This document shows, in pieces, positions 27,125 through 34,778 of a DNA stretch of 55,542 nt. Numbering within the stretch: the first letter of the stretch is position 1; each line of letters begins with the position of its first letter. Origin of the DNA: Candidatus Altimarinota bacterium (GTDB lineage: Bacteria; Patescibacteriota; Gracilibacteria; BD1-5; UBA6164); NCBI GenBank assembly GCA_030683605.1, contig JAUXPL010000004.1:1-55542 (forward strand), written 5' to 3'. The position numbers and the translations under genes are program-made. The notes beneath the pieces were generated by a model. That model was not told the DNA's origin. It was given only the letters and a program-made list of their open reading frames with translations, and made no database searches.

Positions 27125-27305
27125 TCAGACTATTCCCTAACTCATATTCCATTAAGGTAAGGAAAATGTGGTATATTTTTCTAACCCATCCCCTCGTACC
27201 TCGGGATACCCCAAGAGTACTTCCTTCGGGGCGCCCCCCTTGAAAAGGGAAGAAATTTCTCCCTTTTTTAAAGGTAGTAACGCAGGGGGACGGATTAAAA
27301 CCATA
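27125..27305. repeat. Dispersed repeat cluster downstream of lysA
   Basis: AAAATGTGGTATATTTTTCTAACCC (27164-27188) is the inverse complement of the start of the 66-bp unit at 1-132. It is followed by GC-rich palindromes around CCTCGGGATACCCCAAG and GTACTTCCTTCGGGGCGCCCC, then CTCCCTTTTTTAAAGG. The insertion sites of several family members seem to overlap here. No gene is visible. Confidence 0.7.
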
Positions 27306-27331
27306 GTACACAATTCCTTAACTTTCTGTCA

Positions 27332-28486: not shown

Positions 28487-30490
28487 ATGGAATTAAAACA
28501 AAAACTTATAGAAGAATTAGAAAAAGAATGATTTCCAGATTTGAAATTCATTTTTTCAGATGAGATACTTGATATAGCAACTAAAATGCTTGATGAATTT
28601 TTGGAAATAGATAAACAAAAATTTGAGGATTTTTTAAAAATACAGAACAAAGATTTAAAATTTGAGTCATTTGAAGATGAAAGTAATTTGGATTATTTTT
28701 GGAGTTTATTAAACCATTTTCAAAGTGTAGAAAATACTGAAAAAATAAGAAAAATAGTAGAAGATTTCAGACCAAAACTGCAAGATTTTTGAAATTATGT
28801 TGCATATAATTCAGATTATTTTGATAAACTTATATATGTAGAAAACAATTTAAACTTGGATGAAGAACAAACTAGAATAATGTATCTGAGAATAAAGGCT
28901 TTCAAAGATAGATGAATAGATTTACCAAAGGATAAACAAGACAGATTAAAAGAATTAAATAAACAATTATCTAAATTATCAGATGATTTTTCTAATAATA
29001 TAGTAGATGATGAAGCTCAATTTAGCTATACTATTACTGATTTTTCAGCTATTAAAGATTTACCTAAAGAGATACTAGATAATGCAGATAAAGAGAGATT
29101 TACTGATTGACCTGATGAAATAGAAAAAGAATGATATATATTTGATGCTGATCCTACTACTTATCAAGCAATTATGAAATATTGTCATGATAAAACTATT
29201 AGATGAGATTTTGCTCGTAGATTTTATAGTTTTGCTAGTAGTTGAAAATATGATAATAGAGAGAATATATTGAATATATTGAAATTAAAAAAAGAAAAAT
29301 CTGAAATATTATGATATAAAAATTATGCAGAACTAAGTCTGAATTCAAAAATGGCAGAATCACCGAATCAAGTATTTGAATTGATAGAATGAATTTCAAA
29401 AAAGGCTTATGAAAAAGCTGAAAATGAAATGCAAGAATTAAAAGATTATTTCAAGTTGGACAATATAGACTCAGAAGATTTGGCTTATTATTCTAGAATA
29501 TATAAAGAAGAAAAGTACGATATTGACGAAAAAGAATTGAAACAGTATTTTGAATTAGAAAATACTTTGACTTATTTGCATAATTTGTCAAAAGAGTTTT
29601 ATTGAATAGAACTAATAGAAATAGATTCAAATCTAGAAGACACAAGAATATATGAAGTTTATAAAGACTCTGTACTTATTTCTTATTATTTTTTGGATGC
29701 ATTTTATAGAAAAAATAAGAGACCATGAGCTTGGGCAGATAACTTAAGAGAAAAAGAATATTTTCCAAAGACTAAATTGCCTATAATAGTAAATGTATGT
29801 AATTTTCAAAAAACACCATGAAAAATTACACTATCTATGAGAGATGTAGAAACTCTTTTTCATGAGTTTTGACATGCTCTACATGAGATAAGTAGTGAGA
29901 GTAAATATAGTGAATTATCATGATTTTGAGTAGAATGGGATTTCGTAGAATTACCTAGTCAATTATTAGAAAACTGGGTTGCAGATAGAGATAGTTTGCA
30001 AAAATTGGCTAAACATTATGAAACAGGAGAATCAATTAGTAAATCTATGTTAGACAAGTTGGACAATTTAAAAACATATATGTCAGGTACATTTGTAGCA
30101 AGACAGAATGAATTTGCTTTATTAGATATGCATATATATTCTAGTGAAGTATCAGAAACAGTTGAAATGTTAGACAAAAAAGTTTTAGAGATAGTAAATA
30201 AGTATTCTATATTTCCTAGATGAGATGATTACAAAATGTATTGTAGTTTCGGCCATATTTTTTGATGATGATATTCTGCATGATATTATTCATATATGTG
30301 GGCTGAAATAATTGAAGCTGATGTATTTTCTAGAATAAAAGAATTATGAATGTTTGATAGATCTGTGTGAGAAAAATTACTTAATACAATATTGTGACAA
30401 TGAACTAGAAAAACAGCTACTGAGTTATTTTTTGATTTTATGTGAAGGGAAGTAGATAATACTGCCTTCATGGAAAGAAAATGATTGTAG
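28487..30490 (+). CDS. M3-family zinc oligopeptidase (OpdA/Dcp-like)
   Basis: The 667-residue product is an oligopeptidase of the thimet family, cutting short cytosolic peptides. The zinc motif is HEFGHALH (H459, E460, H463), followed by the ELPSQLLENW helix that contributes the third ligand, and the substrate-binding FGHIFGGGYSAGYYSYMWAE loop with the conserved HIF-GYSAGYYSY pattern. The C-terminus ends in GREVDNTAFMERKGL, typical of PrlC/Dcp-type members. No signal peptide is seen. The long leader upstream may control expression. Confidence 0.92.
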
Positions 30491-30499
30491 AAATATGTG

Positions 30500-30570
30500 A
30501 AAAACTTCGTATTTTTTCGACCACCCCCTGCCTTTCAGGCATCCCCCTCCTTAGTAAGGCGGGGGAAAGA
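30500..30570. repeat. GC-rich repeat copy after the M3 peptidase gene
   Basis: CCACCCCCTGCCTTTCAGGCATCCCCC and CCTTAGTAAGGCGGGGGAAAG lie back to back. They belong to the dispersed palindromic family and sit between the peptidase and rhodanese genes. Confidence 0.6.
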
Positions 30571-30606
30571 TTAAATATATTGATACTATAAATAATTTAA
30601 TTTATT

Positions 30607-30936
30607 ATGACTATTAGAAGATTACATGCAAAACAATTTAGTGATGAGATATTTAAAAATGACACTATTTTGATAGATATTAGAACTCCACAAGAGAAAG
30701 TAATTTATGGATATATTAAGTGAACAGATTTATATTATGATATGTATTCTAAAAAATTTGTTGATAATATGTTACATCTAGATAGAAATAAAAAGTATTT
30801 GATTTATTGTTGGCACTGAAATAGAACTCAATATGTATTACAATATATGAAAATAAATTGATTTACTGATGTATCAGATTTGATATGATGAATAGAATAT
30901 TGGGAAGCATATTGATTTAATGTAATTCGTGATTAA
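30607..30936 (+). CDS. Single-domain rhodanese
   Basis: The 109-residue product has the rhodanese fold signatures: ILIDIRTPQEKVIYGYIKG at the N-terminus, YLIYCWHGNRTQYVL with the active-site cysteine C68 and the loop CWHGNR, and SDLIGGIEYWEAYGF at the end (the GG-x-x-xW motif). It probably carries persulfide sulfur. Six of its seven glycines are TGA-coded, a useful contrast with the next gene. No sulfur-pathway genes are adjacent. Confidence 0.88.
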
Positions 30937-30945
30937 GTAAACAAT

Positions 30946-30985
30946 AAAAAAAGGACACTAAAAATTAATTTAGTGTCTTTTTTAA
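30946..30985. terminator. Bidirectional terminator
   Basis: AAAAAAGGACACTAAA pairs with TTTAGTGTCTTTTTT. It ends the rhodanese gene. The minus-strand neighbour, if its TGA is read through as glycine, would run into this stem. Confidence 0.85.
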
Positions 30986-31699
30986 AATAAATCATTGATT
31001 TTGATAGTCGTTCAAATATTTTCTCAAGTATTCGTTATACCATTTTGTTTTCATTCCCATTGATAGACCAGCTAATAATAGAGCTAAAAACAAAAATATA
31101 AGTATAACTGTTTCAAGTTTCAAAGTGTCATATATTTCAGGATATCTACCAGTAAAACTCATCATATAAATAGTGATAAATTTGATTGTAGTTTTTGCTT
31201 TACCTATTATTCCAGCCTCTGGAGGTGAATTTAGTCCTCTTATAAATTGACCAATAATGTCAAATATAGCTATAAAAGTTACAGGAATTAGATATATTGG
31301 TTCAAAAGTAGGGAAAAAACTAAATGCAAACATAGCAGGTAAATCAAACCACTTATCAGCTTGCGCATCCAGCTTGGCACCTTCTATACTACACATATTG
31401 CAATTTCTAGCAACCACACCATCAAGCAAGTCACTAATGGCTAAAAACATAAATATCCATACAGCAAGATAAACTATTATGCTATTTTGTGATTTGATAC
31501 CATATATGAAAAGTAAAACAGTTGGTATACCTAAATATTTCCTCCAATTGCTTATACAGTTTGGAGAAAGAAATCTTTTATTATTTATAAAAAATTCAAT
31601 TACACTTATATTTCTAGGTATTACCCAATAGCATAGAATAATCACTACTGAAATAATAACTAGACTAACAATTATTTCAAGCCAAAAATTCATACTCAT
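30965..31699 (-). CDS. CDP-alcohol phosphatidyltransferase, recently acquired
   Basis: A multi-pass membrane enzyme with the full CDP-alcohol phosphotransferase motif: D90, D93, G94, A97, R98, G107, D111 and D115. It makes a phospholipid head-group linkage such as PG or PI phosphate; the substrate is unclear. All 11 glycines are GGN, none TGA, unlike every neighbour, and it has a canonical Shine-Dalgarno (AAAAGGAG, 7 nt before ATG). A TGA at 30992-30994 follows residue 235; under code 25 it is glycine and the frame runs nine residues further to TAA at 30965 inside the terminator. The TGA is probably the ancestral stop, so the gene looks transferred from a standard-code bacterium. Confidence 0.88.
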
Positions 31700-31734
31700 A
31701 AATTTCTCCTTTTTCTGTTTAAATGAGTAATTAC

Positions 31735-32882: not shown

Positions 32883-34778
<1,896 letters not shown>

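Follow-up and report, generated by a model that had tools for sequence, protein, structure and literature searches.

The window analysed here, a 55,542-nucleotide stretch of a Candidatus Altimarinota genome (contig JAUXPL010000004.1), encodes a PgsA-like CDP-alcohol phosphatidyltransferase that contains no internal UGA, in a genome where UGA is the predominant glycine codon. Judged from sequence comparison, the gene is old and vertically inherited and has been UGA-free through a long history; it is not a newcomer. It shares the hallmarks of a small class of genes in this lineage: no UGA, a strong Shine-Dalgarno sequence and a stop codon beside an intrinsic terminator (Table 1).

Table 1 Features of the PgsA-like locus and its neighbours in the window
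Feature	Position	Strand	Remarks
Oligoendopeptidase F-like PepF	28487..30490	+	Convergent; marks the conserved locus; named from sequence
Rhodanese	30607..30936	+	Convergent; UGA-rich (6/7 Gly); syntenic in G004 and G002; named from sequence
Intrinsic terminator hairpin	30954..30977		GACACTAAA/TTTAGTGTC; TAA of the PgsA-like gene in the loop
Code-25 C-terminal extension and TAA stop	30965..30994	-	G FILKKTLN, 9 residues
TGA, stop in the standard code, glycine in code 25	30992..30994	-	
PgsA-like CDP-alcohol phosphatidyltransferase	30995..31699	-	235 codons, 11 GGN glycines, 0 TGA; PF01066 E 1e-16
Shine-Dalgarno AAGGAG	31706..31711	-	6 nt 5' of ATG; kept in orthologues
DnaK	32883..34778	-	UGA in 25/56 Gly; conserved neighbour in G004, G002 and G022

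The reading frame opens with the ATG at 31699-31697 on the minus strand. The initial annotation had described 235 codons in which all 11 glycines are GGN and TGA is absent, a canonical Shine-Dalgarno sequence, a TAA inside the terminator and a rhodanese neighbour using TGA for six of seven glycines, all of which was confirmed on the sequence (TAA in the hairpin loop; rhodanese TGA 6, GGN 1). The duplex of AAGGAG with the 16S tail of the family has a calculated energy of -9.9 kcal/mol, and the hairpin at 30977-30954, probably a bidirectional terminator, folds with -12.3 kcal/mol (z -6.1). Downstream of the TGA the codons are TTT ATT TTA AAA AAG ACA CTA AAT, followed by TAA (30965-30967); the extension to the TAA was thus rightly described, its length of ten residues was not, the glycine and eight codons making nine. 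The TGA had also been placed exactly at the expected end of the protein, which is nearly so: the two closest orthologues have a TAA two codons earlier. A GC-rich stretch, ccccctgcctttcaggcatccccctccttagtaaggcgggggaaag, lies between pepF and the rhodanese gene (30535-30580) in this genome of 24% GC, and a similar one seems to be present near 27170-27310.

The share of glycines written as TGA is 76% in the window and 74% in a 391 kb sample of the genome, with a median of 78% per gene; only about 4% of genes with at least 10 glycines are UGA-free. Under a uniform model, 0 TGA among the 11 glycines of the PgsA-like gene has p ~4e-7. UGA is read as glycine in the neighbouring genes, a tRNA-Gly(UCA) with glycine identity bases (G1:C72, C2:G71, G3:C70, U73) is present, and a search of the genome for RF2 or an alternative release factor found none, the single RF-family gene being of RF1 type by its motif. 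The tRNA (L082:6364-6442, L018:19078-19156), called tRNA-SeC by ARAGORN, is identical in the window's genome (G000) and in G004, G022, G018 and G025. That Gracilibacteria and Absconditabacteria read UGA as glycine is well documented (PMC8629427, PMC6851277 and references therein). Because of the TGA share of the window, the sole RF1-type factor and the tRNA-Gly(UCA), the terminal TGA should be glycine in this host, adding the nine residues. The natural C-terminal extension proposed initially is therefore likely in the window's species; a conserved tail was rejected, as the extension is not kept in the orthologues (in G004, for instance, the earlier TAA precedes it). In two genomes of the same order, of another family and of higher GC (G049 and G042; L013, L014), in-frame TGA codons of PF01066 genes seem by eye to align with tryptophan of relatives (AV-TGA-LLGF, ETV-TGA-LSPN), hinting at UGA = Trp in that family.

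The predicted protein scores 62.1 bits against PF01066 (cut-off 22) and contains the family motif D-x2-DG-x2-AR-x8-G-x3-D-x3-D, with D90, D93, G94, A97, R98, G107, D111 and D115 invariant in the 12 orthologues and in the set of 14 sequences. Both the profile and the predicted fold place it closest, among solved structures, to the phosphatidylglycerol phosphate synthase PgsA (7drj/7drk), from which it differs by about 40 additional N-terminal residues and by a score far below the curated pgsA equivalog cut-off (TIGR00560, 44.9 vs. 109.1 bits), and for this reason we call it PgsA-like. By family, it is predicted to be a membrane enzyme that links CDP-diacylglycerol to an alcohol, for example glycerol 3-phosphate. 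UGA-containing sister PgsA-like genes in G010 and G012 (L025, L026) adjoin a CarS-like gene and, in G010, also a PgpA-like gene, as judged from sequence; this context suggests a phospholipid operon, which is not seen around the window's gene.

Orthologues occur in 11 further genomes of its taxonomic family (95, 74 and 60% identity in three, near 30-36% in eight more), all of them UGA=Gly by one and the same coding test. None of these orthologues has an internal TGA, although the sampled stretches of their genomes have 49-84% of glycines as TGA. The 12 UGA-free orthologues form one clade (support 98/93), and its sister consists of the UGA-rich genes of G010 and G012 (13 of 16 glycines as TGA in G012) together with two order-level relatives. 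The order dnaK ... gene - rhodanese - pepF is common to G000, G004 and G002, the 95% and 74% orthologues having the same neighbours on both sides, and the intergenic DNA upstream of the gene is orthologous between G000 and G004. In the species of genus g4, too, the gene and pepF converge, and its other neighbour is tsaD. Four-fold sites have changed at 12/42 positions between G000 and G004 and at 21/34 between G000 and G002, and overall the synonymous change of the orthologues falls inside the range seen for other genes or just above it; this normal rate rules out a strong constraint on all synonymous sites, such as an overlapping gene or RNA. The gene has no CGN codons and an ATA fraction of 0.54 (range 0.48-0.57), both native-like, with only GC3 (0.20) and TTA (0.34) somewhat off. 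Beyond glycine its codon usage is not foreign, and since the arginine and isoleucine codons are native-like, codon amelioration has largely taken place, with UGA as the exception.

Searches of 353 genomes of the class and 380 of the phylum, and of plasmids, phages and viral contigs (plasmid records, phage records and IMG/VR), yielded no close standard-code homologue; chromosomes outside the phylum were covered by one whole-genome contig scan with a single protein (three close relatives only). Phages gave no match to the gene and viral contigs only weak PF01066 matches. We rejected a code-neutral phage gene on the chromosomal synteny and the missing phage match; a viral or plasmid reservoir was not found in the records searched. 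The initial annotation had read the gene as a recent transfer into the window's species from a standard-code bacterium, caught before codon amelioration. The absence of UGA (0/11), the Shine-Dalgarno sequence and the TGA at the expected end speak for this, and the standard-code style that it recognized stands, as does the likely extension in the window's species. The phylogeny and the homologue search it proposed gave, instead of standard-code donors as nearest relatives and absence from sister species, a UGA-free code-25 clade with no close standard-code member found; the close homologues in other code-25 genomes likewise lack TGA, those at 95, 74 and 60% identity among them, the first two with the same neighbours. 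Together with the normal synonymous rates and native-like arginine and isoleucine codons, this makes a recent transfer hardly credible. A foreign origin is plausible; its recency is not supported.

The third base of the GGN glycine codons changes often among the PgsA-like orthologues, and TGA never appears. In ordinary genes, 36% of GGA and 17% of GGT glycines have TGA as their counterpart in the second species for G000/G004, and 54% and 39% for G000/G002. Over four path-independent species pairs, 2.4, 4.2, 3.1 and 4.1 TGA gains (14) were expected in the PgsA-like gene and none was observed (P ~8e-9); the G000/G004 pair alone is weak (P 0.06), and it is the combination of several pairs and genes that carries the weight. 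Six of 135 orthologue pairs between G000 and G004 are TGA-free in both species (the PgsA-like gene, pyrE, pyrF, purC, pyrD and a 900-residue protein), and the distribution of TGA fractions has a gap after these six, the next gene being rplA at 0.12. For the six genes 25 TGA gains were expected and 0 observed (P 1.6e-13), a figure which, as the class was picked for having no UGA, is best read as showing no gradual passage from no UGA to much UGA; slow amelioration would require such a passage, and it is not seen. Genome-wide numbers are from partial samples (644 kb of G000, 571 kb of G004 and 335 kb of G002). Native genes that are presumably highly expressed also avoid the codon (rplL 0/11, rplA 3/20, pilin 2/22), so that there seems to be selection against UGA.

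The absence of UGA is coupled to the mode of initiation. GGAG precedes the start in 0.8% of 793 UGA-rich genes vs. 53% of 30 UGA-free genes, and in other genomes of the family a Shine-Dalgarno sequence was found in 1/236 UGA-rich vs. 6/7 UGA-free genes; the UGA-free minority is thus mostly Shine-Dalgarno-led and the UGA-rich majority is not, about 80% of genes in the genus having no such match. Within the purC and pyrF families, members without UGA mostly have a Shine-Dalgarno sequence and members with UGA mostly do not. Hybrids with both internal UGA and a true Shine-Dalgarno sequence are nearly absent, a rare one being a ComM-like gene of G018 (L019:1015-2553; AAAAAGGAG before the ATG, UGA for 21/32 glycines). 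The assembly of the window itself yielded no 16S gene, and the anti-Shine-Dalgarno sequence was taken from eight relatives (L259-L266: G022, G021, G008, G023, G068, G007, G010, G033), in which the 16S tail is GGACTATCTCCTTA and not the canonical GGATCACCTCCTTA. The core is therefore UCUCC, altered yet usable, and pairs with AAGGAGA.

The UGA-free genes include pyrD/E/F, purC, ilvC, spermidine synthase, PEP-CTERM proteins, a HaeIII-type enzyme and a polysaccharide cluster, which is the make-up of transferred genes; some are probably recent, because they are lineage-specific in the samples. Their TTA fraction of leucine codons is 0.15-0.43, vs. 0.5-0.9 in highly expressed native genes, and CGN reaches up to 0.55 of arginine codons, vs. 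near 0. Foreign codon usage is carried by purC and pyrE/F, that of purC being constant in three species. In G002 (L255, G002:C12), UGA-free polysaccharide and surface genes lie side by side, a few of them ending in TGA with a short code-25 tail; this cluster has the look of a genuinely recent import. The UGA-free 900-residue predicted membrane protein (L211:239-2932 in G000 and L221:4798-7509 in G004, 62% identical) had no match in Pfam, NCBIfam or PADLOC. UGA-free secreted PEP-CTERM proteins (L066:4810-5439 and L214:1759-2298 in G000, L080:880-1488 in G004) have a GC3 of 0.21-0.37 and no orthologue in the other samples.

The PgsA-like gene ends in TGA in G000, G022, G018, G025 and G032 and in TAA in G004, G002, G007, G067 and G068. 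In G022, G018, G025 and G032 an intrinsic terminator lies between the terminal TGA and the next in-frame TAA or TAG, so that read-through would yield a non-stop mRNA; such a hairpin in the last 40 codons occurs in 0/944 ordinary genes. This leaves three readings for the four genomes: UGA acts as a stop, rescue takes care of the product (a tmRNA is present and could act on non-stop mRNAs), or the copies are young arrivals. In the window's gene the stop precedes the U tract and read-through therefore gives no non-stop mRNA.

Our preferred explanation, held tentatively and at something short of an even chance, is an old vertical gene of a standard-style class from which purifying selection keeps UGA out. 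The class would have entered the lineage by one or more ancient transfers from a standard-code source; the PgsA-like gene would be translated in its own cell from its Shine-Dalgarno sequence, and purifying selection would remove UGA, most likely owing to the cost of decoding it with tRNA-Gly(UCA) when an mRNA is strongly initiated. The terminal UGA in the window's species would probably be read as glycine, with nine tolerated residues. This explanation is strained by the codon usage of UGA-free genes, which in other respects does not follow native preferences: simple selection for fast translation fits poorly, because the other codon marks of highly expressed genes are lacking, and the constant foreign usage of purC calls for more than selection on UGA. 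The main rival, rather unlikely though to be taken seriously, is that such gene lineages have their main home in a standard-code reservoir outside the present sampling (prey bacteria, phages or plasmids), from which they enter UGA=Gly genomes repeatedly, so that each copy looks unameliorated. It would account for the whole foreign style of UGA-free genes (Shine-Dalgarno, CGN arginine, higher GC3, some TGA stops), for their patchy presence (29/48 family genomes are without PF01066) and for lineage-specific cases in the samples such as the PEP-CTERM proteins, ilvC and the polysaccharide cluster, and the G022 and G018 copies could be separate arrivals. However, the gene sits at the same locus with species-like divergence in G000, G004 and G002 and in five g4 species, even the upstream intergenic DNA is orthologous between G000 and G004, the clade has no standard-code member, and the records searched held no close viral or plasmid source.

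Ordinary expression-level codon bias, by which a highly expressed gene would avoid UGA as ribosomal proteins do, is improbable. Low UGA use (0-19%) in rplL, rplA, an S1-like protein and pilin agrees with it, but these genes have GC3 0.07-0.14 and TTA 0.76-0.92, against 0.20 and 0.34 (with ATA 0.54) in the PgsA-like gene, and high abundance is not expected of a PgsA-type enzyme; high expression as the whole reason was rejected on these codon marks. Quite improbable, too, is that UGA is a true stop in these mRNAs, translated either in a standard-code cell (prey or host) or in a special decoding state of their own cell. This would fit the absence of internal UGA, the UGA that is the only in-frame stop before the terminator in G022, G018, G025 and G032 (vs. 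0/944) and the presence of nucleotide and phospholipid enzymes in the class. Against it, neither a delivery route nor a second release factor was found (one RF-family gene, RF1 motif), the tmRNA could rescue non-stop mRNAs, and related genomes have UGA-rich PgsA-like, pyrF and purC genes that presumably work. The boldest form, a long shot, would be a chromosomal gene set in UGA=Gly episymbionts under lasting selection for standard-code readability, with UGA as true stop and the products made where the standard code holds, for example in the prey cell, or in a cell state without decoding of UGA as glycine. If true, a recoded genome would hold a code-neutral gene set, including nucleotide and phospholipid synthesis otherwise thought to be taken from others.

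Searches of open-licence papers retrieved no report of UGA-free chromosomal genes, nor of their link to the Shine-Dalgarno sequence. In Streptomyces the rare leucine codon TTA, through bldA, marks a set of regulated genes. There, too, one codon is excluded from a gene set; here, in contrast, a common codon, UGA, is missing from a minority of genes, and no regulation is claimed. Unameliorated transferred genes likewise combine atypical codon use with atypical initiation signals, but the atypical state described here spans several genera, and the arginine and isoleucine codons of the PgsA-like gene are native-like. Phages that have no TGA in frame, and so may be readable under either code, have been described in or around UGA=Gly Gracilibacteria and Absconditabacteria (PMC10746230), and they resemble the present genes in reading the same in code 11 and code 25. 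Those are phage genomes, explained by dual host range, whereas here single chromosomal genes are concerned, with vertical descent and no phage relative found.

A reassigned stop codon is often viewed as a barrier that is crossed once and then adapted to. Here genes are code-neutral across several genera, and their lack of UGA is coupled to a Shine-Dalgarno sequence that the rest of the genome hardly uses. In genomes of this kind the two features together are a marker pair for standard-style genes; callers using code 25 will mis-end genes like those of G022, G018, G025 and G032 if UGA is a stop there. The system is a simple one in which to study the working and the cost of UGA=Gly decoding and the passage of genes from one code to another.
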